This document shows, in pieces, positions 5,034 through 17,806 of a stretch of DNA of 64,000 nucleotides. Source of the DNA: Cupriavidus taiwanensis (lineage in GTDB: Bacteria > Pseudomonadota > Gammaproteobacteria > Burkholderiales > Burkholderiaceae); contig NZ_LT977070.1 of the NCBI RefSeq assembly GCF_900250075.1, forward strand, positions 310,001 to 374,000, written 5' to 3'. Position 1 is the first letter of the stretch; every line of letters begins with the position of its first letter. The position numbers and the translations under genes are program-made. The notes beneath the pieces were generated by a model. It saw nothing but the letters and a program-made list of their open reading frames with translations. It did not search any database and was not told the DNA's origin.

Positions 5034-6341
5034 TCATCGCTCCTGCCCCTGCCGCAACGCAGGCGCCACCGCACACGCGACCAATAGCAGCGCAGCCATG
5101 ATGATCAGTCCATTACGCGTGCTACCGGTCGCTTGTTCGATCAGCCCCATCACCGACGGCCCGATGAATCCCCCAATCAGCCCGCAGGTATTGATCAGCG
5201 CCAGCCCGCCCGCCAGCGCTACACCCTTGAGGCGCGACGACGGAAACAGGAACACGATCGACTGCACCACAAAGAACATCAGCGCGGTCAGCGAGAAGCC
5301 CACCAGCGCCATCACCGGGCCGGCAAAGGCGGCGATCAGCAGGCCGCCAGCCATCACGGCCAGTCCCAGGCACAGCAGTCGGCGGCCGCGGCCCGGGGTG
5401 TTGGCGTGGCGGGGCAGCCAGGCGGCGCCGATGGCGGCAGCGATCCAAGGCAGGGAATTGAGCAGGCCGATCTCCACGGACGTCAGCTTGCCGTAGGTGC
5501 CGATGATGCCCGGCAGGAAGAAGATCACCGTGTAGATCGAGATCTGGTGGCAGAAGTAGATGAAGATCGCCAGCCACACCTGCGGGTCGCGCATGGCGCC
5601 CAGGAACGAATGGCCGGCCTTGCCGGTGCTGGCATCGGCGGCTTCCGCGGCAAGGCGGCTGCGCACGGCCTGGGCTTGCGCAGGCGTCAGCCATGGCGCG
5701 CTGTCCGGTCCGTCGGGCAGCTTCTTCCAGACTACGGCGGCCAGGAACACGGCCGGCAGGCCTTCGAGCACGAACATCCATTGCCAGCCCTTGAAGCCCC
5801 AGATGCCGTCCATGGCCAGCAGCGCGCCGCCCAGCGGGCCGCTGACGATGTTGGCGATGCAGACACCCAGCAGGAAGTAGCCCACCGCCCGCGCGCGGTC
5901 TTCGCGGCCGAACCAGTAGGTCAGGTAGAGCATCACGCCGGGGAAAAGTCCCGCCTCGGCCGCGCCAAGCAGCACGCGCATGATGTAGAAGGACGTCTCG
6001 CCCTGGACAAAGGCCATTGCCGCCGACGGCAGGCCCCACGTCACCATGATGCGCGTGATCCAGAAGCGGGCGCCGACCCGATGCATGATCAGGTTGCTCG
6101 GGATTTCCAGGAAGGCGTAGCTGAGGAAGAACAGGCCGGCGCCCAGCCCGTAGGCCGCGGCCGAGATGTTCAGGTCGACCGCGATGTGGGTCTTGGCCAG
6201 CGCGATATTGGTGCGGTCCAGGAAGCTGATCACGTACGACAGCACCAGCAAGGGCATGAGCTTGCGGAACAGTAGCGCGGTCAGCGGGCGGTCGGTCGGC
6301 GCGGCCAGCGGCGGTGCGCCCGAGGCGGGTACGGTCTGCAT
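5034..6341 (-). CDS. MFS carboxylate transporter, ACS family
   Basis: 435 residues from ATG 6341, chosen because GGAG lies nine bases upstream; ATG 6356 is an alternative. Twelve membrane helices. The N-terminal pattern SYVISFLDRTNIALAK and the PGVMLYLTYWFGREDRARA loop are typical of the anion:cation symporter (ACS) branch, which takes up organic acids such as phthalate, galactonate or tartrate by proton symport. It is the last gene of a minus-strand unit with the BKACE and SDR genes, so it probably imports the substrate those enzymes degrade. Substrate unknown. Confidence 0.85.
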   Translation of the reverse strand: MQTVPASGAPPLAAPTDRPLTALLFRKLMPLLVLSYVISFLDRTNIALAKTHIAVDLNISAAAYGLGAGLFFLSYAFLEIPSNLIMHRVGARFWITRIMVTWGLPSAAMAFVQGETSFYIMRVLLGAAEAGLFPGVMLYLTYWFGREDRARAVGYFLLGVCIANIVSGPLGGALLAMDGIWGFKGWQWMFVLEGLPAVFLAAVVWKKLPDGPDSAPWLTPAQAQAVRSRLAAEAADASTGKAGHSFLGAMRDPQVWLAIFIYFCHQISIYTVIFFLPGIIGTYGKLTSVEIGLLNSLPWIAAAIGAAWLPRHANTPGRGRRLLCLGLAVMAGGLLIAAFAGPVMALVGFSLTALMFFVVQSIVFLFPSSRLKGVALAGGLALINTCGLIGGFIGPSVMGLIEQATGSTRNGLIIMAALLLVACAVAPALRQGQER

Positions 6342-6460
6342 GTGCGTAGTCTCCATCGGCCGATACGGCGCGGCGCCCGTGGCGCGGGCTTGCCATTCGG
6401 CCTGGTTGATGTCTTCGGTGATCGATGCCTGCCCGGGCCGCGCCATGGCGGCCCGGCGGT

Positions 6461-7393
6461 TCAGAACGCGGTGCCTGCTGCGCCCTTGAGGTCGAGGATG
6501 TCGCGGGCTTCGTCGGGCGTGGCGACGTCGATGTTCAGCGCTTCCAGCACGGTGCGGATGCGCTTGACCTGCTCGGCGCTGGACGCGGCCAGCTGGCCCG
6601 GGCCGATCCACAGCGAATCCTCCAGGCCGACGCGCACGTTGGCGCCCATCGCCGCGCCGATGGTGGCCAGCGGGATCTGGTTGCGGCCGGCTCCCAGGAT
6701 CGACCAGCGGAACTGGTCGCCGAACAGGCGCTGCGCGGTGCGGTGCATGTGCATCAGGTCTTCGGGATCGGGGCCGATGCCGCCCAGGATGCCGAACACC
6801 GATTGGATGAACACCGGACCCTTGACCAGCCCACGGTCAAGGAAGTGGCGCAGGTTGTAGAGATGGCTGATGTCATAGCACTCGAACTCGAAGCGCGTGC
6901 CGTTGGCATTGCCGATGCGCAGAATGTTCTCGATGTCCTGGTAGGTGTTCTTGAAGATCAGGTTGCGGCTGTTCTCCAGGTGCTCGCGCTCCCAGTCGTG
7001 ACGGAAATCCTTGAAGCGCTCCAGCATCGGGAACAGGCCGAAGTTCATCGAACCCATGTTCAGCGAAGCCAGCTCCGGCTTGAAGGTGGTGGCCGGCAGC
7101 ATGCGTTCCTCGACGGTCATGTGCGGGCTGCCGCCGGTGGTGATATTGATCACGGCATCGGTCTCGGCGCGGATCCTGGCAAGGAACGGCCGGAACAGCT
7201 CCGGATCCTGCGACGGGCGTCCGTCCTTGGGATCGCGGGCGTGCAGGTGCAGGATGGCGGCGCCGGCGCGTGCCGCGTCGATGGCGGCGGTGGCGATCTC
7301 GTCGGCAGTCACCGGCAAATGGGGCGACATGCTGGGCGTGTGGATCGCGCCGGTCGGGGCGCAGGTGATGATGGCTTTTGCTCGCTTGGCCAT
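6461..7393 (-). CDS. Beta-keto acid cleavage enzyme (BKACE, DUF849)
   Basis: 310 residues. BKACE enzymes condense a beta-keto acid with acetyl-CoA and cleave it to acetoacetate plus a new acyl-CoA, using a zinc ion in a TIM barrel. Visible family marks are the N-terminal ITCAPTGAI, the zinc pair His49/His51 in ILHLHARDP, NITTGG, LNMGSMNFG and the C-terminal RVGLEDSLW. The founding member acts on 3-keto-5-aminohexanoate in lysine fermentation, others on dehydrocarnitine or keto-adipate-type acids. Here an SDR dehydrogenase lies just upstream and could make the beta-keto acid from a beta-hydroxy acid. Substrate not determinable by eye. Confidence 0.9.
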   Translation of the reverse strand: MAKRAKAIITCAPTGAIHTPSMSPHLPVTADEIATAAIDAARAGAAILHLHARDPKDGRPSQDPELFRPFLARIRAETDAVINITTGGSPHMTVEERMLPATTFKPELASLNMGSMNFGLFPMLERFKDFRHDWEREHLENSRNLIFKNTYQDIENILRIGNANGTRFEFECYDISHLYNLRHFLDRGLVKGPVFIQSVFGILGGIGPDPEDLMHMHRTAQRLFGDQFRWSILGAGRNQIPLATIGAAMGANVRVGLEDSLWIGPGQLAASSAEQVKRIRTVLEALNIDVATPDEARDILDLKGAAGTAF

Positions 7394-7463
7394 GGTGGTT
7401 CCTTGTCGGTGTTGGTGGTCCGCATCGCGGATAGCCCGCGGTGCAAGGAATGCGAGGGGCGCG

Positions 7464-8246
7464 CTAGCTGAGCGCCTGGGTCAGTCCGTCGACGACCATT
7501 TCCTGCCCGTGCACGCTGGCGGCCTGGTCGCTGCACAGAAAGCGCACCATGTTGGCGATATCGCGCATCGTCACCATGCGTCCCAGCGCCGCCTGCGAGG
7601 TGTAGTCGCGCGTCACTTCCTCCAGCGGCTTGCCCAGCGACTCGGCCTTTGCGGCGATCACGGCGCGGATGCGCGGGCCGTCGACCGCCCCGGGCAGCAC
7701 CGTGTTGACGCGAATGCCATCGGTGCCCAGTTCCAGCGCCAGCGACTTGGTAAAGCCCACCACTGCCCATTTCGAGGCGGAGTAGGCCGAACGGCCCGGC
7801 ATGCCGAGATGCCCGGCGGCGGAAGACAGGTTGACGATCGACGGCGAGCGACCTTGCCGCAGGCGCGGCACCGCGGCGCGGGCGCACAGGAACTGGCCGG
7901 TAATGTTGACGGCCAGCGTGCGTTCCCAGTCGGCCAGCGACAGCGTTTCGACGCCGCCGGTCGGTCCGGCAACGCCGGCATTGTTGACCAGCACGTCAAG
8001 GCCGCCAAAAGCCTGGTCCACCGCCTGGAACAGCGCCTCGACGTCGCTTTCCTTCGACACATCGGCCCTGACGGCCACCACGCCCGGCAATTCGGCGCAC
8101 ACGCGTTCCAGTCCGTCGCCGGCCAGGTCGCAGACCGCGACGCGGGCGCCCGCTTCGGCCAGCGCCCGTGCAATTTCCAGCCCGATGCCGCTGGCACCCG
8201 CAGTGACCAGCACGCGTTTGCCGGCGAGCGATTCATCCTTCCACAT
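7464..8246 (-). CDS. SDR family NAD-dependent dehydrogenase
   Basis: 260 residues, classical short-chain dehydrogenase. The cofactor loop is VTAGASGIG (residues 14-22), Asp40 after the second strand favours NAD over NADP, NNAG is at 88-91, the catalytic Ser is in the NLSSAAG strand, and Tyr155-xxx-Lys159 is in AYSASKW. It is the first gene of the unit SDR-BKACE-MFS and faces the GntR regulator across a 107-base gap. A sensible role is oxidation of a beta-hydroxy acid to the beta-keto acid used by the BKACE; this is inference from order. Confidence 0.88.
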   Translation of the reverse strand: MWKDESLAGKRVLVTAGASGIGLEIARALAEAGARVAVCDLAGDGLERVCAELPGVVAVRADVSKESDVEALFQAVDQAFGGLDVLVNNAGVAGPTGGVETLSLADWERTLAVNITGQFLCARAAVPRLRQGRSPSIVNLSSAAGHLGMPGRSAYSASKWAVVGFTKSLALELGTDGIRVNTVLPGAVDGPRIRAVIAAKAESLGKPLEEVTRDYTSQAALGRMVTMRDIANMVRFLCSDQAASVHGQEMVVDGLTQALS

Positions 8247-8300
8247 GGTTTCAATCTCCTCAGGGCAGGCCGGTGCCTGCCTTCCGGACGAAGATTAAAA

Positions 8301-8312
8301 CTGTGATCACAG
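8301..8312. promoter_or_regulatory. Palindromic operator candidate, CTGTGATCACAG
   Basis: A perfect 12-bp palindrome in the gap between the SDR unit and the GntR gene, followed by a partial second half-site (ATCA). FCD-type GntR regulators bind short palindromes of this kind, so it is the likely operator for the neighbouring regulator and would cover both divergent promoters. Confidence 0.6.
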
Positions 8313-8353
8313 ATCAAATATAGAGAATAACCCTATGTGCTATGCTTCGCGGC

Positions 8354-9124
8354 ATGAGCCTGAATGACCTTGTGACGCCTCTCGTCCGCCAGACCCTCAG
8401 CCGCGACGTCTACGCGCAGCTGCGCGAGCTGCTGGTCAGCGGCCAGATGATGCCGGGCGAGCAGATTTCCCTGCGCAACATCGCTGCCGCACTGGGCGTC
8501 AGCGTCATGCCGGTGCGCGAAGCGGTGCACCGGCTGGTCGCCGAACAGGCCCTCGAACTCACGCCCAACCGCGCGCTACGCGTGCCACGCATGAGCGTCA
8601 GCCAGTTCGAGGAAATCACCAAGATCCGGATCGAACTCGAAGGGCTCGCCACCGCGACCGCGGCCGAACGCATCACCGACGAGGAACTGAAGCAGGTGCA
8701 GACCCTGCACCGCCGCTTTGCCGAAGAGATGGCCAAGCGCAATCCCGACGGCGCCGATGTCATCGCCGCGAACCAGGCCTTTCACTTTGCCGTCTACGCG
8801 GCGGCGCGCATGCCGATCCTGCTGCAGATGATCGAGTCACAGTGGCTGCGCATCGGGCCGATCCTGAACCATGACCTGCGCTCGGGGTCGCGACGGGTGG
8901 AGGAACGCGTCGCGGTCAAGCATCACGACAAGCTGGTCGAGGCGCTGCGCAAGCATGACGGTGCGGCGGCTTGTGCGGCGCTGCGCGGGGATATCGAAAG
9001 TGCGGCGGTTTATATTGTCTCGGCGGGGGTGCTGGTGAATGCGGAGACGCCTGAGGGGACGGCCGCAGCGCCGATGGCTGTGAAACCCGGTACTAAGGCA
9101 GGGCGTGCCGGGGTGAAGGGCTGA
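8354..9124 (+). CDS. GntR family regulator (FCD domain)
   Basis: 256 residues from ATG 8354; an in-frame ATG at 8342 is possible. The winged helix (residues ~10-75) shows LRELLVSGQMMPGEQIS, LGVSVMPVREAVHRLVAEQAL and a recognition region typical of GntR. The C-terminal all-helical FCD domain holds the Asp/His metal or ligand residues (ANQAFHFAVYAAA, KHHDKLVEALRKHDG). It diverges from the SDR-BKACE-MFS unit with a palindrome between, so it most likely represses that unit and is released by the substrate or an intermediate. Confidence 0.88.
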   Translation: MSLNDLVTPLVRQTLSRDVYAQLRELLVSGQMMPGEQISLRNIAAALGVSVMPVREAVHRLVAEQALELTPNRALRVPRMSVSQFEEITKIRIELEGLATATAAERITDEELKQVQTLHRRFAEEMAKRNPDGADVIAANQAFHFAVYAAARMPILLQMIESQWLRIGPILNHDLRSGSRRVEERVAVKHHDKLVEALRKHDGAAACAALRGDIESAAVYIVSAGVLVNAETPEGTAAAPMAVKPGTKAGRAGVKG

Positions 9125-9428: not shown

Positions 9429-10691
9429 GTGGGTCAAGTACGGGCAAGTACGTATCAGAATGTGGCGCCAGGGCGCGCCATAGCCGCATGGCCCTGCATC
9501 ACGGCTGTGGGTCTCGCCGCCGTGTCAATGGCTGCCACCGCATTGGCTGCCGGTGTCGTCCCAGACGGCGGCACCGCCACCACAGCCACCACCGGCGTCA
9601 ATGGCCGCATCACCGTCGGCGTCGCTGATCCCATTGGCGGTGTCTCGGCCAATACCTACCGCGAATTCAATGTCCCTCGCGCCGGGGTCGACCTGGACAA
9701 CAACGCGGCGCGTGCCCGCACCATCCTGAACCAGGTCACAAGCACCAACCCATCGCTGTTGGAGGGACCGCTCTCTGTACTGGGGGCGCGTGCGAACGTC
9801 CTGATCAGCAATCCGAACGGCGTCAGCGTCAATGGCCTTGTGGTGCGGAACGTCGGCAATCTCGCCCTTGCTACCGGTCAGGTCAGCTTCAACGATTTCA
9901 CCACCGCCAATGGCCAGTTGCAGCGCAACCTGGTGCTCAGCACCAGCGAGGGTGCGATCGACATCGGGGCGGAAGGCCTGTCCGGCACGTTGCTGAATCT
10001 GGAACTGGTCGCCAGGCACATCCGCGTGGGCGGCACGGTGGAGAACCTGTACGGCGATCCGAACGCACGCGTGCGAGTCGTCGCCGGTGCAAGCCGGGCT
10101 GAGATCGACACCAGCTTCTCTCCTACCGACAACCTCACGCCGTGGATCGACTATTCGGCACCTGCCATCAATCCTGGTGGAGGTATCGCGCTCGACATCA
10201 CCGGTGCGGGCAGCCTCTCTTCCGGCCGGATCGAGATGATGGTGACCGACCAGGGCGCGGGCGTGCGCCACGCCGGTTCCGCCTTTGCGACCGCAGGAGA
10301 CTTTCTGGTCTCCGGGACCGGGGACCTGCAGTTGGCTTCCGGACGTATCAAGGCGAAACAGGATGTGCTGATCGGCAGCGGCGGCCTAACTGGCGCCGGC
10401 GATATCAGCGCTGGCCGTCATCTGCAGATTGATTCGGACCGGGTCAAGCTTGCCGGAAGCATTGCGGCGGGCACGGGCACGGCTGGGGACCTGGTAATCG
10501 GGTCCGCGGGCCAGGTGCATGGCCAGCCGCTGCAGTTTACGGATACGACGCTCACCGCCAGCGGTGGCGTTGGTCTCTTCGATGCCGGCACAGGTATTGG
10601 CCTTAGCGGTGTCCGGGCAAGCGCAGGAGGCAATGTCCTGATCAAGGCTCCGAGGCTGACAACGGCAGCGGGCATTGCAACCCACGGATGA
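9429..10691 (+). CDS. Truncated two-partner-secretion exoprotein (FhaB/CdiA N-terminal region)
   Basis: 420 residues from GTG 9429. A long signal region (hydrophobic to ATALAAG, residues ~25-41) is followed by a TPS secretion domain: RITVGVADPIGGVSANTYREF, ARTILNQVTS and the hallmark VLISNPNGVSVNG, then the start of a beta-helix. Members of this family are normally thousands of residues long and carry a C-terminal toxin or adhesin. Here the frame ends after the first haemagglutinin-type repeats. No TpsB/CdiB transporter is nearby. The stop is three bases before the first lipoprotein gene. Probably a remnant of a deleted fhaB/cdiA gene, though a short secreted product cannot be excluded. Confidence 0.8.
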   Translation: MGQVRASTYQNVAPGRAIAAWPCITAVGLAAVSMAATALAAGVVPDGGTATTATTGVNGRITVGVADPIGGVSANTYREFNVPRAGVDLDNNAARARTILNQVTSTNPSLLEGPLSVLGARANVLISNPNGVSVNGLVVRNVGNLALATGQVSFNDFTTANGQLQRNLVLSTSEGAIDIGAEGLSGTLLNLELVARHIRVGGTVENLYGDPNARVRVVAGASRAEIDTSFSPTDNLTPWIDYSAPAINPGGGIALDITGAGSLSSGRIEMMVTDQGAGVRHAGSAFATAGDFLVSGTGDLQLASGRIKAKQDVLIGSGGLTGAGDISAGRHLQIDSDRVKLAGSIAAGTGTAGDLVIGSAGQVHGQPLQFTDTTLTASGGVGLFDAGTGIGLSGVRASAGGNVLIKAPRLTTAAGIATHG

Positions 10692-10694
10692 AAA

Positions 10695-11336
10695 ATGACG
10701 GCAGCTAAGTTATGTGTCGGGATGATGACTCTTGGTTGTGTCGCTTGTCTTCATTCGCCGCCGAATTACCCCGGTGCCGGAGGCAATAATCTCGATCCGG
10801 CTCAGTATGTAGCGGCAGAGTGCCCGAATTTGAGTGGGCGTTACCAAGGCGTTGGTGAGCTCGTAGAGGGGGATGCATCAGCGCAACAAGCAGCGCGGAC
10901 ATGGAGAATTTCAAACGTATTTCCCTTTCGGGACAATAATCAAGCGCAGGAGGTGCTGGCGGCGTCCCGATCGAGCGATGGCCGGTACGCCGCCCCTGCT
11001 TACACACTCGTGACCATGGCAACCCGTATTGCGAAGCTCAATTTACATTTTGAGAACGGGAAATCGATTGAGTATCTTTCCTCCTTTGAAGACAAGGGGA
11101 GATTCGTGTGTACTGGTCCATATGGAGTAATTTCTTGGGGAGGGGCGAGCGAAGGTGGGCGATCTGAGTACGGGCCGAATCGCTCCGACTCTGTTGTCAC
11201 GCTTTATCTGGATCCTTCTGGAAACCTCATTCTTGAACGGGGCATGCAGGTCCATATGCGCCTACGGCTAGGATTGATTCCTACGGGAACAGCCAAGTAC
11301 TTCGCCATCTATCGATTTAAACGGCTACCGGATTGA
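10695..11336 (+). CDS. Paralogous island lipoprotein, copy 1
   Basis: 213 residues; the start lies three bases after the exoprotein stop, so translation is probably coupled. A short signal peptide ends in GCVAC-LHSPP, with the lipidated cysteine at 18. The mature protein starts with HSPPNYPGAGGNNLDP and has the blocks GELVEGDASAQ, VFPF, FVCTGPYG, WGGASEGGRSEYGPN and the end YRFKRLPD, all shared with the two following genes. I do not recognise a family. A predicted outer-membrane or periplasmic lipoprotein in a contact-dependent-inhibition-like setting could be an immunity or accessory protein. The gene is AT-richer than the chromosome core. Confidence 0.8.
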   Translation: MTAAKLCVGMMTLGCVACLHSPPNYPGAGGNNLDPAQYVAAECPNLSGRYQGVGELVEGDASAQQAARTWRISNVFPFRDNNQAQEVLAASRSSDGRYAAPAYTLVTMATRIAKLNLHFENGKSIEYLSSFEDKGRFVCTGPYGVISWGGASEGGRSEYGPNRSDSVVTLYLDPSGNLILERGMQVHMRLRLGLIPTGTAKYFAIYRFKRLPD

Positions 11337-11573
11337 GGGTGCCGCTTGTGCCCTTGCTGCACGTCCCTGAGCGACGTAATTTGGACTGCCGATAGCTGGG
11401 TATCGGGTATAGGTTTTCACCGCCCGTTTTTCGGGGGATGGTTGAAGCCGAGCCCACTATTCGAAGGATGGCAAATGAATCGAACAGGCGCGTCGCAACA
11501 TTGTCAATTCAATATGGTATCGGTATCGACTGATTGGCTTTCCGTAACCTGAGCCGGAAGCTAAAGGTACTAA

Positions 11574-12215
11574 ATGAGTCGAGTGAAATTCGTCGTTCTC
11601 CTGTTGGTCAGCGCCTGTTCGGGGTGCTTCCACTCTCCCCCCAACTATCCCGGTGGGGGTGGAGAGAACATCGACCCTTCTTACTATGTTGATGCAGCAT
11701 GCCCCGAATTGACTTGTCAATATGATGGGAGAGGAGAACTACTGGACGGTGATGCGACTGCGCAAGGCTGGGCGAGAACTCGGCGCTTAGACAATGTATT
11801 CCCATTTGTGCGTACCGAAGAGGTGTCTGCAATCGACGAGGCTTCTAGGTCTGATGCGGGGCACTTCCAATACCCAAAATACGGACAAGTTTCACGGATC
11901 AGTGAGCGCATTTTTCGAAGTAGGTTCACGTACCCCAATGGAAAAGCTGCAGTTCAACGGTTCTTCTTTGAGGACAAGAACCGCTTCGTTTGCACCGGAG
12001 CTGAGGGGAAAATAGCCTGGGGTGGGTCGAGCAAGGGTGGTCGTTCCGAGTTCGGACCAAATACGTCCGATTCAATGGCTGTGCTTTACATCGATGATCA
12101 TGGCGACCTCATCTATGAGAAGTCCACGCAGATTCACACGAATATGTTGTTTGGTGCCATTCCTACTGGAACGGTAAAGCACTTTGCCAAGTATCGATTC
12201 AAGCGGATTCGATAA
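11574..12215 (+). CDS. Paralogous island lipoprotein, copy 2
   Basis: 213 residues, the same length as copies 1 and 3. AAAGGT precedes the ATG by about seven bases. The signal peptide ends ACSGC-FHSPP, then NYPGGGGENIDPSYY, GELLDGDATAQGWARTRR, FEDKNRFVCTG, WGGSSKGGRSEFGPN and YRFKRIR. It is closer to copy 3 than to copy 1 in the GDATAQGWA block. A 237-base gap separates it from copy 1, in which I see no gene beyond a short doubtful frame at 11346-11552. Function unknown; see copy 1 for the context argument. Confidence 0.8.
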   Translation: MSRVKFVVLLLVSACSGCFHSPPNYPGGGGENIDPSYYVDAACPELTCQYDGRGELLDGDATAQGWARTRRLDNVFPFVRTEEVSAIDEASRSDAGHFQYPKYGQVSRISERIFRSRFTYPNGKAAVQRFFFEDKNRFVCTGAEGKIAWGGSSKGGRSEFGPNTSDSMAVLYIDDHGDLIYEKSTQIHTNMLFGAIPTGTVKHFAKYRFKRIR

Positions 12216-12345
12216 AGGCGGCTTAAACCAAAAGGGTGTTAAAGCGCCAGATAGCAGCGTGTCTGCTGCGTGTTTGGCCTTGCTTAGTCAGTAGGGATAG
12301 ATTGTTCTGCTTTCCACAACTGGACCACCACTCTAAAGAAGCTGA

Positions 12346-12987
12346 ATGAATGGATTGATAATCAGTGCAGTGGTTCCCTTGATGTGTTGGGGGTGCCTTC
12401 ATTCGCCGCCAAATTACCCCGGCGCCGGCGGTAACAATATTGATCCGGCCGACTACGCTAGCGTTGCTTGCCCCGACCTGAGTGGCAAGTATGAGGGCAG
12501 AGGCGAACTCTTGGATGGGGACGCCACGGCTCAAGGATGGGCCAAGACTAGGCGCATCGACTATGTCTTTCCATTTGCCAGTAATGCAGAGGCGATGAAA
12601 TTTATGAGCGCTGCAAGATCTGATGCAGGCCGCACCTCGTATCCGACATACGGAGAAGTGACGAGGATCGCCGAGCGGATATTCCAAGTCAGCGTGAACT
12701 ATGAGAATGGAAAAAGCGCATCACGCACGCTATTGTTCGAAGACAAAAACAGATTCGTATGTACTGGTTCCCATGGGAAGATCATATGGGGAGGCGCTAG
12801 CGAAGGTGGCAGATCCGAATTCGGACCGAACACCACGGATTCGATGGCGATGCTCTACCTCGATGACCAAGGAAATCTGGTTTCGGAAGATTCGATGCAG
12901 GTTCACATGAGCCTGCGGCTTGGTGGAATTCCAACTGGCACGGCCAAGCACTTTTCAAAATATCGATTCAAACGGTTACCTGAGTGA
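12346..12987 (+). CDS. Paralogous island lipoprotein, copy 3
   Basis: 213 residues. The signal peptide is short and ends MCWGC-LHSPP; the mature start NYPGAGGNNIDPADY is almost that of copy 1, while GELLDGDATAQGWAKTRRI follows copy 2, so the three look like tandem duplicates that have diverged or exchanged segments. Other shared blocks are FEDKNRFVCTG, WGGASEGGRSEFGPN, DSMAMLYLDDQGN and YRFKRLPE. The stop codon overlaps the GTG start of the next lipoprotein, showing co-translation with it. Function unknown. Confidence 0.8.
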   Translation: MNGLIISAVVPLMCWGCLHSPPNYPGAGGNNIDPADYASVACPDLSGKYEGRGELLDGDATAQGWAKTRRIDYVFPFASNAEAMKFMSAARSDAGRTSYPTYGEVTRIAERIFQVSVNYENGKSASRTLLFEDKNRFVCTGSHGKIIWGGASEGGRSEFGPNTTDSMAMLYLDDQGNLVSEDSMQVHMSLRLGGIPTGTAKHFSKYRFKRLPE

Positions 12988-13394
12988 AATCGTCATTTCC
13001 ACACCACATTCGGCAATATGGACTTGCTGCTGGATGCTGCCTGGCGCTTGCTGCCTGTGCCCCGATGATTGCAACGGCCCCATCGGCTATCGAGGTCACC
13101 CAACCAAGCGCGGCCGCCCGACGCATCCAGATCCTGACCGCTACAACCATCAAACTTGACACTGGCTATTCCCGCACGCTGCCTGAAAAGTCAGTCTGGT
13201 CGAAAGCTGGCCGCGTTCCGCAGGGCGATGTCTTCCGGCCTGTCGGCACCATCTTCACCATCGAAGGCCGCCAGGTACACGAAGCCTACCTGGTCATCCA
13301 TAACCAGACCCTGGTGGGCTTCTATTTGCCCGGGGAACACAACTATTCCCCGCTATCCACCGCAGTACCTTTGAACTTGGGAGAATCAGAATGA
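12984..13394 (+). CDS. Small lipoprotein in the island operon
   Basis: 136 residues, GTG start overlapping the stop of lipoprotein copy 3 (GTGA). The N-terminus is basic and followed by a hydrophobic stretch ending LALAAC, a standard lipobox with Cys25. The rest is about 110 polar residues with a central RTLPEKSVWSKAGRVPQGDVF and a C-terminal VIHNQTLVGFYLPGEHNYSPL. No family recognised. Overlaps at both ends (GTGA upstream, ATGA downstream) place it in one transcript with copy 3 and the DUF2846 protein. Confidence 0.75.
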   Translation: MKSSFPHHIRQYGLAAGCCLALAACAPMIATAPSAIEVTQPSAAARRIQILTATTIKLDTGYSRTLPEKSVWSKAGRVPQGDVFRPVGTIFTIEGRQVHEAYLVIHNQTLVGFYLPGEHNYSPLSTAVPLNLGESE

Positions 13395-13849
13395 AACGGG
13401 TCGCACGCATGCTGATCGCTGGACTTGCAGTGTCGTCACTGCTGGCTGGATGCGCTTCGGGTGTAAAACACGCCGACATGGAGGCGTCGATCCCGACGCT
13501 GAAGCAGGGTGACGGCCGGGTGTACTTTCTGCGCTCGGCATCAATGTTCGGCGCGGCGATTCAACCGGATCTTCGTCTAAACAATGAGGTGGTCGGCGAG
13601 TCGAAGCCCGGCGGTTTCTTCTTTGTGGATCGCCCCGCCGGCAAGTACGTGGCGTCGGCTTCGACCGAAACCGAAAAGACGCTGAGCTTCGTCCTTGACG
13701 CCGGCGAGACGAAGTACGTGCGCAGTTCACCGTCGATGGGCTTGATGGTGGGCCGCGTCGTGCTGGAACTGGAGACGCCTGAGAAGGCCAAGGCAGATCT
13801 CGCATCGCTGAGCTACACCGGCGACGTAGTCAAGGCGCCGGCGAAGTAA
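13391..13849 (+). CDS. DUF2846-like lipoprotein
   Basis: 152 residues; its ATG overlaps the previous stop (ATGA). The signal peptide ends LLAGC with Cys21. The body resembles DUF2846 proteins: GRVYFLRSASMFGAA, DLRLNNEVVGESKPGGFFFVDRPAGKY and LDAGETKYVR, a small beta-rich periplasmic domain often found in lipoproteins of unknown function. It is the last gene of the island; a GC-rich hairpin follows 11 bases after the stop, and codon use is more like the chromosome core than in the three paralogues. Confidence 0.75.
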   Translation: MKRVARMLIAGLAVSSLLAGCASGVKHADMEASIPTLKQGDGRVYFLRSASMFGAAIQPDLRLNNEVVGESKPGGFFFVDRPAGKYVASASTETEKTLSFVLDAGETKYVRSSPSMGLMVGRVVLELETPEKAKADLASLSYTGDVVKAPAK

Positions 13850-13960: not shown

Positions 13961-14359
13961 TCACGTCAAACAAGCCGCATTCACCACGCCCACCGACAAC
14001 GAAATCACCCCCATCACCGCCCCCACCCCGCGGTTATCACTTGAGATCGCCTCACTGACACCCCCCAGCGCCCGCGCCGCCACCAGGTAAGCCAGCACCT
14101 GCACCGCAAACGCCCCAAACGCCCACAGCAAGAACATCGCAAACGTAGCGTTGTGCTGAATGCTCGACGACAACGTCAGCGAGAACCCCAGCACCGCTCC
14201 ACCCAGTGACAACGCTGCCGCGATATTGCCCTCGCGGATCAGCGTGAATTCCCGATGCGGCGTGACGCGCGTATAGACCAGCAGGAACAGCCCCAGCATG
14301 GCAAAGCCGGTGACGATGTAGATCAGGTAGGCAAGCGCCGGATGCATGGTATTGACCAT
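13961..14359 (-). CDS. DUF350 membrane protein (YjfL-like)
   Basis: 132 residues from ATG 14359 (MVNTMHPALAY); four hydrophobic helices typical of DUF350, with TLIREGNIAAALSLGGAVLGFSL and AYLVAARALGGVSEAI as family marks. It is the last gene after homospermidine synthase, the ATP-grasp ligase and YgiB; in Escherichia coli yjfL, yjfM and yjfC have the same DUF350, DUF1190 and ligase content. DUF350 proteins are thought to be small membrane transport or channel-like subunits, but the activity is unproven. A broken partial copy lies at 4723-4876. Confidence 0.85.
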   Translation of the reverse strand: MVNTMHPALAYLIYIVTGFAMLGLFLLVYTRVTPHREFTLIREGNIAAALSLGGAVLGFSLTLSSSIQHNATFAMFLLWAFGAFAVQVLAYLVAARALGGVSEAISSDNRGVGAVMGVISLSVGVVNAACLT

Positions 14360-14417
14360 TGGATGGACTCGTTGTCGGTTGTCAGGGGGATGCGGGATGG
14401 CGTTTGGCGCGGGCACT

Positions 14418-15140
14418 TCAGCCGCCGCCGGAGCGGCCGGAGCTGCCGAAGCGGCTGGTGAAGCCGCCGCGCGATACCACCGGTGCGCGCGATACGGCCG
14501 CGGAGCGCATGGTCAGGCCCATGGAGCGCCCGCCGCCGAGTGAGCTGCGGCGTACGGTGGCTTCTTCCACCATGGCGGCGCGCGGGGTGGCGTTGGTGAA
14601 GGATTGCGTGGGCGTGCCGTTGCGGTCGTAGACCTGCATCGGGCGCAGCGGGCCCGACGTCATATCGCGCTGGGTCTGGCTGCCGTTGGGGTGGTAGACG
14701 GTGCCGCTGGCTGTGTAGTACGGGCCGTACCAGCGTGCGTAGTACGCGCTGCTGCTGTGCGTGGTGCCTGAGCCGGCGGCTTCGCTGGCGGGGGCGTTGA
14801 GGCTGGAACTGTAGATGGTGCTGGGGTCGTCGATCGGCACACTTTCGCAGTCGTTGGGCGTGTTCCAGTCGGCCTCGCAGTCTTCCAGCGTGGCGTAACT
14901 GGCGCGGCGCACGGTGATGCCCGGATCATCATCGGCGTCGTCGCTGCAGGAGCCGAGCACGGCCACGCCGGCGACCACGGCGCAGGCGCCGACGATCCAC
15001 AGCGCGGGCGAGCCGCCCTGCTTTTTCTGTTCGGCCTGGTAGGCGGCGATGCGCGGCGACGGGCCGCCGGAGCCGCCCCTTCCGGGCATGTATGGGCTGC
15101 CGTACTTGGAGCGCTTGGTGCCCTTCTTCTTGTTGGCCAT
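14418..15140 (-). CDS. ygiB: YgiB/YjfM family protein (DUF1190)
   Basis: 240 residues. A basic, Gly/Pro-rich N-terminus of ~45 residues precedes a hydrophobic segment ending LGSC (Cys65), which could be a lipobox or a plain membrane anchor. Then come the DUF1190 features: SYATLEDCEADW, DCESVP, ARWYGPYY and a Ser/Gly-rich C-terminus (GGFTSRFGSSGRSGGG). It begins four bases beyond the stop of the ATP-grasp ligase and is followed by DUF350, the arrangement seen for ygiB-ygiC and yjfM-yjfC in enterobacteria. The molecular role is unknown; an envelope partner of the ligase is likely. Confidence 0.8.
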   Translation of the reverse strand: MANKKKGTKRSKYGSPYMPGRGGSGGPSPRIAAYQAEQKKQGGSPALWIVGACAVVAGVAVLGSCSDDADDDPGITVRRASYATLEDCEADWNTPNDCESVPIDDPSTIYSSSLNAPASEAAGSGTTHSSSAYYARWYGPYYTASGTVYHPNGSQTQRDMTSGPLRPMQVYDRNGTPTQSFTNATPRAAMVEEATVRRSSLGGGRSMGLTMRSAAVSRAPVVSRGGFTSRFGSSGRSGGG

Positions 15141-15143
15141 GGC

Positions 15144-16319
15144 TTACGCGTGGGTGAAGTAATGGGGGACGAAGAAGCTGGTGTTCTTGGCGATGGGCCC
15201 GGATTCTTCGCGCACGCACAGGCCGCTGGGCACGTCGTCGACGATCCAGACGCCCAGCGTGGTGTAGCGCCCGTCAAAGCGCCGCGCCGGTTCGTAGGCC
15301 TGGTAGATGAAGCCTTCTTCGCCATACTCGCCGGGGTTGTGGACGCGCTCGCCCTCGGGGGTGAGCAGCGTCACGCTTTCGCCTTCGCGTGACAGGAAGG
15401 GCTTTTTCGCGTGCGGCTTGCCGGCGAAGTGGCCGGGGTCGAAGCTGGCTTCGATCAGGTTGGGATGTCCCGGGAACAGGTCCCACAGGATCGGCAGGAT
15501 GGCCTTGTTGGACAGCACCGCCTTCCACGGCGGCTCGACCCAGCGCACGGGGCTGTGCGCGAGCTGGTCGCGGTAGTCGGAGGTGGCCATCCATTCCCAC
15601 GGGTAGAGCTTGAACACGACTTCCATCGGCACGTTGTCGGCATCGTAGAAGTTGCCGCGGCCGTCGGTGCCGATCTCCTGCAGGTCGACCAGCTTGACCG
15701 CCCAGCCGGCCTGCAGCGCGGTGTCCATCAGGTACTCGGCATTGCAGACGTCTTCCTGGCTGTCGAACATGCACGCAAGGTGCAGCAGGCTGGCGTTGCG
15801 GTAGTGGTTGCGCAGCCATTGCCAGCGCGCCACCAGTGCGTCGTGCAGGCTGTTGAACTGGTCGGCCTGCGGCTGCACGGCGTCTTTCCAGTACCACTGC
15901 GCGACGGCGGATTCGATCAGCGATGTCGGGGTGTCGGCGTTGAACTCGTACAGCCTGGGCACGCCGTGCGGGTCCAGCGTCATGTCGAAGCGGCCGAACA
16001 GCGTGGGCTCGTCGCGGTCCCACGAGGTGCGGATCAGTTGCGCGAAGTCCGCGTCGATCGCCAGGCGCGCGAACAGGTCGTGGTCGATCACATGCTGCAC
16101 GGCTTCCAGGCAGCGCTGGTTCAGGTCGTACGCGGCGGCATAGAGCGTTTCCACCTCCTGCTTGCTGAAGGCGTAGGCGGCGTCTTCGCGCCAGTAGAAG
16201 AAGGTGTTGTCATCGACTTCGCGCGGGACGTTGAACTCGTCCAGCGAATGGAAGTGGAAGCCCACCTTCTCGAGTTCGCGCGGCCAGTTGCGGCGAGGGG
16301 TTTGCGGGATGCGTTGCAT
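15144..16319 (-). CDS. ygiC: Glutathionylspermidine synthase-like ATP-grasp ligase (YgiC/YjfC)
   Basis: 391 residues from ATG 16319, which shares one base with the stop of the upstream homospermidine synthase gene (TGATG), so the two are translationally coupled. The protein matches the synthetase half of glutathionylspermidine synthase: FYWREDAAYAF, LYEFNADTPTSLIE, SNKAILPILWDLFPGHPNL, KKPFLSREG, GEEGFIYQAYEP and the C-terminal GLCVREE. The amidase half of the E. coli Gss enzyme is absent. Such free-standing proteins are predicted to join a peptide or amino acid to an amine; the substrate is not known. The polyamine gene next to it suggests a homospermidine-type acceptor. Confidence 0.88.
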   Translation of the reverse strand: MQRIPQTPRRNWPRELEKVGFHFHSLDEFNVPREVDDNTFFYWREDAAYAFSKQEVETLYAAAYDLNQRCLEAVQHVIDHDLFARLAIDADFAQLIRTSWDRDEPTLFGRFDMTLDPHGVPRLYEFNADTPTSLIESAVAQWYWKDAVQPQADQFNSLHDALVARWQWLRNHYRNASLLHLACMFDSQEDVCNAEYLMDTALQAGWAVKLVDLQEIGTDGRGNFYDADNVPMEVVFKLYPWEWMATSDYRDQLAHSPVRWVEPPWKAVLSNKAILPILWDLFPGHPNLIEASFDPGHFAGKPHAKKPFLSREGESVTLLTPEGERVHNPGEYGEEGFIYQAYEPARRFDGRYTTLGVWIVDDVPSGLCVREESGPIAKNTSFFVPHYFTHA

Positions 16320-17713
16320 CAGCAGGCTAGCGTCAGGAGAGCGGGATCGGACCGGACCGTGGCATCGTCCAGCAGAAAGTCGGTGAAGGCGAGCGAGCTG
16401 GCGCCGGGCCGGGGCAGCCAGTCGGTGAAGGCGAGGCTCAGCGGCGCCCACCAGTGCGCGGCATCGGCCAGCACCGGGCCGAAGTCGAGCGCATCGGATT
16501 CCACCACGCCACGCGACGGATTGGCCAGCATCCACTGCATGCCGGCGACCAGGCTCGAAGCCACCTGCAGGCTGGTGGCGGTGTTGTACGGCGCCAGCGC
16601 GCGCGCGCGCTGCACCGACAGGCGCGAGCCATGCCAGACCGCGCCGTGCCGGCTGCTCATCAACAGTACGCCGAGTTCGTCTTCGCCGCACTGGATCTCG
16701 TCGCGCAGGATGCGTTCGCCGCGCACGCGCGGGGCGGCGCGGTCGTCCAGCCATTGCATCGAGGCCTGCGTGGCGGTGGTGGGGCGATAGGCGTAGTAGA
16801 CGGTGGGGCGATACAGCGGCTGGCCGGCGCGGGTGTCGGTCAGGTACTCGGCGATCGAGATCGATTCGTTGTGCGTGATCAGGCAGGCATCGAACGGGCC
16901 GTGCACCGGCGACCACGAGCGCACGCGGGTGCGATGGCCCGGCCGGTCCAGCGCGATCGCCACGCCGCTGCCGTAGTCGTGGCGGTAGCCAGCGGGCGGC
17001 AAGCGGGGTTCATGGCTGCCCCAGCCGAGTTCGGCGTCCTGCAGGCATTCGGTGATAAAGCCTTCGGCGGACCAGGTGTTGGCGAACTCGCCGTCGCGCG
17101 GATAGCCAGGCGCCTGCTGGCTGTCGTATTCGGCGACCTGGATCACGCGCACGTCCAGCGCGCGCGCCAGCGCGGCCCAGCCGGCGCGATCCCGGGGTTC
17201 CGGCCGATCCATGCCCGCCTTGCCGGCCAATGCCATCAGCGCGGACTTGACCAGCACCGAGACCAGCCCGGGATTGGCGCCATGCGCGACCAGCGCGGTC
17301 GGCAGCGCCTCGCGGCCGCGGGCGAAGGCCAGCATCTCGTGGCGCAGCGCGTAGTTGCTCAGGTGCGAGGCCCGCGGATCGGCGGCGTAGTCCCAGGGCT
17401 CGATGCCGGCATCGACATAGAACGCGCCGTGCGCCTGCGCCAGTGCAATCAGGTCGCGGCTGCAGACGGACGGGGCCAGGTTCAGCAGGAAGGCGCCGGG
17501 CCGCAGCAGCGGGGCCAGCATGGTTTCGTAGTTGGCCGCGGTGATGGTGGCCTGGATGGCTTGCAGCTTGTGGCGGGCGACCAGTTGCTGGCGCGCGCGG
17601 TCCAGCACGCGGTCGACCACGGAGATCGCTGCCCCCGGCCAGGCCCGCTCCAGCAGCGGTAGCACGGCCTGGCCGATGCAGCCAAAACCGACGATGACGA
17701 TTTGTTCGATCAC
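16319..17713 (-). CDS. hss: Homospermidine synthase-like protein
   Basis: 464 residues from GTG 17713, preceded by GGAAGG at six bases. The enzyme makes sym-homospermidine from putrescine (and spermidine) with NAD as a recycled cofactor. Visible marks: the NAD loop VGFGCIGQAVLP, GIEPWDY, GANPGLVS, EYDSQQ, NTWSAEGFITE with the active-site Trp, ELGWGSHE and LITHNESISIAEYL. These agree with bacterial Hss; length is also close. It leads a four-gene unit with the ATP-grasp ligase, YgiB and DUF350, and a 14-bp palindrome lies about 95 bases upstream of its start. Confidence 0.88.
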   Translation of the reverse strand: MIEQIVIVGFGCIGQAVLPLLERAWPGAAISVVDRVLDRARQQLVARHKLQAIQATITAANYETMLAPLLRPGAFLLNLAPSVCSRDLIALAQAHGAFYVDAGIEPWDYAADPRASHLSNYALRHEMLAFARGREALPTALVAHGANPGLVSVLVKSALMALAGKAGMDRPEPRDRAGWAALARALDVRVIQVAEYDSQQAPGYPRDGEFANTWSAEGFITECLQDAELGWGSHEPRLPPAGYRHDYGSGVAIALDRPGHRTRVRSWSPVHGPFDACLITHNESISIAEYLTDTRAGQPLYRPTVYYAYRPTTATQASMQWLDDRAAPRVRGERILRDEIQCGEDELGVLLMSSRHGAVWHGSRLSVQRARALAPYNTATSLQVASSLVAGMQWMLANPSRGVVESDALDFGPVLADAAHWWAPLSLAFTDWLPRPGASSLAFTDFLLDDATVRSDPALLTLAC

Positions 17714-17806
17714 GCAGACCCTTCCGCCCGAGCAACGGCAAGCGGCGGATCCCCGCACGCGGCATCGGCCGCGCCGGCGCAGGACTGCCCTTGCCTGGCT
17801 TTATCA

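Follow-up and report, generated by a model that had tools for sequence, protein, structure and literature searches.

A probable remnant of a CDI-like two-partner-secretion locus in Cupriavidus taiwanensis that retains three candidate immunity lipoproteins

A truncated exoprotein gene followed by three lipoprotein genes

This work concerns a 64,000-nucleotide stretch of the Cupriavidus taiwanensis genome (contig NZ_LT977070.1, positions 310,001 to 374,000; the whole stretch is called the window here) and an island within it, in which a fragment of a two-partner-secretion (TPS) exoprotein gene precedes three paralogous genes for lipoproteins of 213 residues (Lip1, Lip2, and Lip3). The sequences make it very probable that this island is the remnant of a polymorphic-toxin locus similar to those of contact-dependent inhibition (CDI), and that it has kept three immunity lipoproteins. 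We favor a deleted CDI-like locus with retained immunity genes because Lip2 and Lip3 are preceded by scars of a toxin-end gene, named here for its FAGPHD motif, and because relatives pair this C-terminal domain with the lipoprotein. The supporting comparisons cover gene order in relatives, adjacency, polymorphic exoprotein ends, the scars, and low dN/dS ratios. Read in this way, the window offers a clear case of a weapon lost and its immunity genes retained, and the natural toxin-end/lipoprotein pairs of relatives make the immunity idea testable. The features are as follows (positions count from the first base of the window; other genomes carry G numbers):

9429..10691, plus strand: TPS-domain fragment, N-terminal part of a short exoprotein termed A2 (GTG start, 420 residues; PF05860, E 8e-34; TIGR01901, E 1e-19)
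10671..10694, plus strand: probable deletion junction, where the end of A2 homology meets the ribosome-binding stretch 5' of Lip1
10695..11336, plus strand: Lip1, candidate immunity lipoprotein, 213 residues (tree neighbors, lipoproteins of G060, G080, and G020; support 96/98)
11499..11573, plus strand: scar before Lip2, putative 3' end of a FAGPHD toxin-end gene (0/300 dinucleotide shuffles reach its score)
11574..12215, plus strand: Lip2, candidate immunity lipoprotein, 213 residues (tree neighbors, lipoproteins of G060, G080, and G016; support 100/99)
12271..12345, plus strand: scar before Lip3, putative 3' end of a FAGPHD toxin-end gene (0/300 dinucleotide shuffles reach its score)
12346..12987, plus strand: Lip3, candidate immunity lipoprotein, 213 residues (tree neighbors, lipoproteins of G014, G082, and G073; support 94/89)
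12984..13394, plus strand: 136-residue lipoprotein, flanking gene (GTGA overlap with the preceding gene)
13391..13849, plus strand: 152-residue DUF2846 lipoprotein, flanking gene (PF11008, E 2e-13; ATGA overlap with the preceding gene)

An earlier note, made from the letters of this DNA, had described the 420-residue fragment, the three 213-residue paralogues, and the two small lipoproteins, and all of them are found where it placed them. The fragment's stop codon lies three bases from the Lip1 start, and the paralogues share 50% (Lip1/Lip2), 58% (Lip1/Lip3), and 60% (Lip2/Lip3) identity. The note's description of an AT-richer island holds for 11 to 13 kb (51% GC, against 62 to 75% from 14 kb on) and does not extend to the TPS fragment itself (60 to 62%). 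Its observation that the transporter, TpsB, is missing is borne out, as tblastn gave no match within the 64-kb window; the only ShlB-type protein of the 6.77-Mb host genome is a distant one on another contig. No second TPS domain was found in the host genome, the large exoprotein described below (A1) is absent from the window, and the host genome holds no further copy of the 213-residue family outside the array. Profile searching likewise recovered no FAGPHD toxin end from the host genome, though three lipoprotein genes are intact. A well-known family assignment, which the note held would speak against its reading, was not obtained for the 213-residue paralogues from Pfam or NCBIfam above cut-off.

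The intact locus in relatives

We mapped 14 loci of relatives, in which the commonest order is A2, TpsB, A1. TpsB was recognized in 11 of these (missed in G064, G001, and G076); because it is present there and absent from the window, we read the window as a remnant and not as a working CDI locus. Exceptions to the common order are G195, where A1 and a lipoprotein gene come first; G065 and G062, whose loci are cut by contig ends; and G076, where an A2 relic stands alone, directly 5' of the 136-residue and DUF2846 genes. Seven loci carry an extra open reading frame of 268 to 307 residues between TpsB and A1, just behind TpsB or, in G195, two genes behind; its products in G074, G012, G022, and G195 are, as we take them by eye, parvulin-type prolyl isomerases.

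The large exoprotein is represented by 11 A1 proteins of 2,402 to 2,741 residues (3,990 in G007). In their alignment, mean identity is 42 to 71% where an interval has 36 or 55 comparable pairs; in the last four intervals (1 to 29 pairs), which span ∼500 of 4,558 columns, it is 12 to 25%. One A1 protein ends in Ntox22, and one orphan end has a Ribonuclease match; for 8 of the 10 pieces tested, Pfam gave no family. Behind the locus in G074, G022, G072, and G064 come partial A1 fragments that bear other ends and resemble orphan toxin modules. By its sequence, then, the intact locus of relatives is of polymorphic-toxin architecture, with a shared A1 body and an exchangeable end. The earlier note had proposed surveying whether homologues of the lipoproteins sit behind full-length exoprotein genes with varied C termini; in intact relatives, the lipoprotein gene stands directly behind a full-length TpsA, and A1 ends vary between relatives, with the lipoprotein behind one kind of end only.

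The fragment in the window corresponds to the second, short exoprotein of this locus. It is 63 to 72% identical to A2 of 12 Cupriavidus genomes, 58% to that of G195, and 47 to 49% to those of G065 and G007. We considered whether it might instead be the N terminus of the toxin-bearing exoprotein and rejected this, since its identity to exoproteins with the FAGPHD end is 24 to 31%, compared to 58 to 72% for most A2 proteins; the exoprotein origin seen by the earlier note stands, and the assignment shifts to A2. Homology to six full-length A2 proteins stops at 10646 to 10670, and the deleted stretch would run from about A2 codon 415 through the end of the toxin domain. The former locus would have comprised A2, TpsB, often a ∼270-residue prolyl-isomerase-like gene, A1 with its exchangeable toxin end, and an immunity gene.

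The FAGPHD end and its lipoprotein partner

A C-terminal domain of ∼193 residues is common to the exoproteins of G001, G195, and G065 (56 to 61% identity) and carries the motif FAGPHD (FACPHD in G065); it has no Pfam family above cut-off and no NCBIfam family. In both G001 (TpsA of 2,402 residues) and G195 (2,741 residues), the exoprotein (TpsA) gene and the lipoprotein gene behind it share four bases, and the TpsA gene of G065 is cut by a contig end. Partial copies of the domain that end at the start of a lipoprotein gene were found in G020, G016, G067, G014, G060, G025, G080, and G412; in G080 they precede two of three lipoproteins, and the lipoprotein of G412 is only ∼30% identical. A 17-residue trace (E 0.02) precedes the lipoprotein of G082. 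With tblastn, we detected no such domain ahead of the lipoprotein in G197 or G073, of the third one in G080, or of one of the two in G060, the last of which still shows a short DNA match, and none was found with the distant lipoprotein relatives of G145, G320, G340, and G381.

Among 398 Burkholderiaceae genomes, the domain occurs in 15 and the 213-residue lipoprotein in 21; the two occur together in 11, and in all 11 the domain, or what is left of it, adjoins the lipoprotein. The hypergeometric probability of this co-occurrence is 5e-13, and that of finding 9 of the 10 Cupriavidus genomes with the domain among the 14 of 60 with the lipoprotein is 1e-6, both figures being inflated by kinship between genomes. 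The adjacency is independent of these figures. Searches of plasmids returned no match to the domain and three distant Paraburkholderia matches to the lipoprotein.

The pairing also depends on which end the exoprotein bears. A lipobox gene lies directly behind A1 in both proteins with the FAGPHD end and behind none of the nine with other ends. This bears on the possibility that the lipoproteins are accessories for exoprotein secretion or maturation, comparable to BcpO of Burkholderia, and not immunity proteins. Predicted outer-membrane lipoproteins within a TPS locus do recall BcpO, which in B. thailandensis is required for full CDI according to the portions of PMC3415462 consulted here. We nevertheless regard an accessory role as unlikely: none of the nine A1 proteins with other ends is followed by a lipoprotein gene, no other candidate immunity gene lies between the toxin end and the lipoprotein gene directly behind it, lipoprotein copies are still present where the exoprotein has been lost, and other FAGPHD ends are followed by unrelated lipoproteins. 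The FAGPHD end is most likely a toxin, and the lipoprotein is its candidate immunity partner, whose protective role we infer from sequence relationships.

A second difference between the ends is the motif AAQNExxNN, which we liken to the motif of VENN type in CDI toxins. It is present in all nine A1 proteins with other ends, 168 to 398 residues from the C terminus, and absent from both FAGPHD A1 proteins and from all 34 database relatives. In CDI, the region behind the pretoxin motif contains a domain for entry across the inner membrane, and most characterized CDI toxins are nucleases, with one forming pores, as described in the relevant passages of PMC9086364. Since the motif is missing from FAGPHD ends and these ends are usually partnered by lipoproteins, the sequences suggest action in the envelope; this combination points to an envelope-acting CDI-type weapon. 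In the mechanism we propose, the FAGPHD domain would act in the periplasm or membrane rather than the cytoplasm, and the lipoproteins, held in the envelope and probably in the outer membrane, would bind the domain delivered by competitors and neutralize it there.

Possible activities of the domain were considered and set aside. A lysozyme assignment came from a lone weak PDB sequence match (E 0.004), which we do not believe. A predicted histidine-aspartate pair within a helix prompted comparison to phospholipase A2 and to lipocone proteins; neither was established, and both are excluded from our claim.

Scars and repeated loss of the weapon

The 75 bases 5' of Lip2 and of Lip3 were compared to intact and partial gene ends of the FAGPHD domain, with 300 dinucleotide shuffles as the control, and both scored above every shuffle. 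At the protein level, tblastn found nothing before Lip2 and a match of E 1.2 before Lip3. Each remaining lipoprotein would then be the trailing gene of one former toxin-end/lipoprotein module. Of the two explanations in the earlier note, that of a deleted CDI locus whose protective lipoproteins were retained and multiplied gains support from the full-length TpsA neighbors, the polymorphic ends, and the two scars, with protection itself remaining the presumed function. The other, that a self-standing lipoprotein system captured the TPS fragment by chance, draws on lipoproteins that lie away from complete exoprotein genes (G145, G197, G320, G340, G381, and, apart from a short FAGPHD end, G412). 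It appears very improbable to us, given that the gene stands directly behind a full-length exoprotein in intact loci, that even the distant G412 has a FAGPHD end directly 5' of its lipoprotein, and that toxin-end scars are present in the window.

Loss of the weapon is not confined to the window. A lipoprotein gene (G000, G014, G025, G060, G073, G080, and G082) or a relic of one (G013 and G071) lies directly 5' of the 136-residue gene in nine genomes, none of which holds a complete FAGPHD domain. In G060 and G073, an A2-like N terminus is fused to a FAGPHD end or to the lipoprotein itself. As judged by these differing deletions in the nine genomes, separate events removed the weapon and left lipoproteins at a single site. 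Decayed copies of the family are seen in G013, G071, and G067.

The two fusions are as follows. In G060 (locus L050, 10726 to 11445, equivalent to L005 of C. alkaliphilus), an open reading frame of 239 residues directly 5' of a lipoprotein gene joins a transposase-like N terminus to a signal peptide like that of A2 and to the final ∼45 residues of the FAGPHD domain. In G073 (locus L052, at ∼9837), an A2-like N terminus is in frame with the signal peptide of a 213-residue lipoprotein, which would shift its start.

FAGPHD ends beyond the 213-residue family

Ends of the FAGPHD type were found in 15 of 399 Burkholderiales genomes, spread over 12 genera, and also cap RHS-repeat proteins (P0075 to P0089), some of which have SpvB and TcdB-midN domains. 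Taking the family and order searches together, a lipoprotein gene lies directly behind the end in 22 of 29 genomes. Within the family search, the 15 genomes with the domain comprise 11 in which the 213-residue family follows, 3 with another small lipoprotein of 124 to 129 residues, and 1 (G066) with TpsB; those without the 213-residue lipoprotein are G066, G209, G214, and G352. The order search added 14 genomes, 8 of which have a lipobox protein directly behind the end; G491, which holds pieces of the domain alone, was left out of the scan for following genes. In G471, the following gene is a relative of the small cysteine-rich lipoproteins without a recognizable start.

The lipoproteins behind FAGPHD ends form at least three groups without clear mutual similarity: the 213-residue family, to which proteins of 219 and 232 residues are weakly related; seven cysteine-rich proteins of 119 to 153 residues with four weakly similar ones of 108 to 113 residues from G710; and a single 110-residue lipoprotein. 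The G710 proteins belong to tandem modules of a FAGPHD end and a small cysteine-rich lipoprotein (L132 on contig C176 and L143 on contig C115), several of which are decaying with toxin parts still readable.

The breadth of carriers raises the alternative of a nontoxic domain that closes or anchors large surface proteins, with the lipoprotein as its periplasmic docking partner. The domain caps TPS and RHS proteins alike, no known toxin fold was found for it, and the G066 exoprotein has no lipoprotein behind its FAGPHD end. We consider an anchoring role improbable, as the domain sits at the exchangeable position where other A1 proteins carry toxins, domain and lipoprotein recur as tandem modules in G710, and at a single site lipoproteins have outlasted the domain in nine genomes or more.

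Several observations weigh against the toxin/immunity interpretation. In 10 of the 21 genomes with the lipoprotein, the window's own included, no FAGPHD end was recognized by profile; the earlier note had held that homologues found mostly away from exoproteins would tell against its reading, and this is not the case for close relatives, with an exoprotein end directly 5' in the other 11. Directly behind the FAGPHD-type exoprotein end of G066 (L074) lies TpsB, and no lipoprotein gene is present there (the TpsB signal peptide was wrongly flagged by our lipobox scan); a signal-bearing protein without a lipobox follows the domain in G426 and G727, and genes that look transposase-like by eye follow it in G682 and G469. 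Seven domain-lipoprotein pairs co-diverge only moderately (r 0.51; 88 of 5,040 permutations), and in four of the seven, domain and lipoprotein were assigned to each other solely through contigs of equal length. The structure model of the domain is poor (pLDDT 58), and Foldseek found no match to it at E ≤ 0.001. Before Lip1, an 18-base match to the stretch preceding a G080 lipoprotein is not significant, being equaled by 19 of 300 shuffles. Finally, the purifying selection indicated by a dN/dS of 0.14 to 0.30 in 15 pairs above 70% identity (18 lipoprotein genes; a 16th pair was saturated) may in part predate loss of the toxin.

The 213-residue lipoprotein family

A protein search returned 57 relatives, and the matches listed include Cupriavidus, Ralstonia, and Paraburkholderia; by genome, the family occurs in 14/60 Cupriavidus, 21/398 Burkholderiaceae (4 of 25 genera), and 2/399 Burkholderiales. 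The lipid-bearing cysteine motif is present in 38 of 41 rows of the family alignment, with the cysteine preceded by glycine or alanine in all 38 and never followed by aspartate; under the Lol rule, the sequences predict an outer-membrane location, and the rule is applied likewise in the part of PMC3415462 used here. The structure model of the lipoprotein is of good quality (pLDDT 84.5), and its similarity to a calycin-type barrel has borderline scores.

Lip1 and Lip2 cluster with lipoproteins of other species with strong support, Lip3 less so (94/89). The three-gene array is probably older than the species compared, as far as the tree indicates.

Relation to known systems

Displaced cdiA-CT/cdiI modules behind a TpsA toxin, often without a start for the toxin part, are described in the accessible sections of PMC3150448, and a CDI review mentions a genome that has an orphan CdiI and lacks cdi genes (PMC9086364, in the excerpt consulted). 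The arrangement reported here shares with these orphan modules the displaced toxin-end/immunity pairs behind TpsA and the keeping of immunity genes, which are thought to protect against toxins of other strains (PMC3150448 and PMC9086364, same sections). It differs in that immunity genes and short toxin scars stand alone, in that the genes are paralogues of one family, and in that they encode lipoproteins. Orphan immunity genes of the type VI secretion system (T6SS) in gut bacteria are likewise kept without the cognate weapon, the effectors in that case being those of a T6SS rather than TPS exoproteins (PMC12247911, from the portion available).

BcpO of the bcpAIOB loci, to which the earlier note had likened the array, is also a lipobox protein of a CDI-type TPS locus with a predicted outer-membrane location (PMC3415462, here and below for the passages used). 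The likeness does not extend further. BcpO with a lipobox has 73 to 74 residues and a nearly invariant mature sequence and is encoded 5' of the TpsB gene, and its definition also admits proteins of 57 to 172 residues without a signal (PMC3415462). The family reported here has 213 residues, is variable, and lies directly behind one toxin end only, so that it differs from BcpO in length, variability, and position.

Lipocone toxins offer a partial parallel: in the portion of the lipocone source consulted, they are tips of polymorphic toxins with lipids outside the cytoplasm as their predicted targets, and the immunity proteins paired with them are membrane proteins or lipoproteins of several folds. 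That portion names no TPS carrier, and no homology of the FAGPHD domain to lipocone proteins was shown. Our literature searches, which covered listings, starts of abstracts, and passages, produced no paper that we recognized as describing the domain or its lipoproteins; the letters AGPHD led, among the matches listed, to an unrelated human gene only. Orphan immunity is thus of a known kind, and the literature searched yielded no description of a motif-less toxin end with lipoprotein partners.

A more general proposal, to which we give about even chances, is that FAGPHD ends form an undescribed family of polymorphic toxin ends of TPS and RHS proteins that stay in the periplasm or membrane of the target, dispense with the pretoxin and entry module, and are neutralized by lipoproteins of several unrelated families. 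Cells without the weapon would keep lipoprotein arrays as a record of past toxins and as a defense against neighbors.

Flanking genes

The two small lipoprotein genes that the earlier note counted within the array appear to be neighbors of it. Of 60 Cupriavidus genomes, 20 have the 136-residue gene, and 10 of these 20 lack the 213-residue family; in relatives, the DUF2846 gene adjoins the 136-residue gene. From this distribution, the 136-residue lipoprotein is probably not part of the array. The idea of five lipoproteins acting as one system is unsupported, as the 136-residue/DUF2846 pair also occurs without the array. No RNA family was found in the region at gathering score, and promoter- and terminator-like sites are no more frequent than in shuffled sequence.

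On the 5' side (5034 to 9124), a GntR/FCD regulator gene (8342 to 9124) diverges from neighboring genes, which we take by eye to be of SDR, BKACE, and MFS type; this is likely a catabolic operon bordering the island. On the 3' side (13961 to 17758, minus strand), a gene for a DUF350 membrane protein comes first, followed by genes that by eye resemble a glutathionylspermidine synthase and a dehydrogenase of the saccharopine or homospermidine type.

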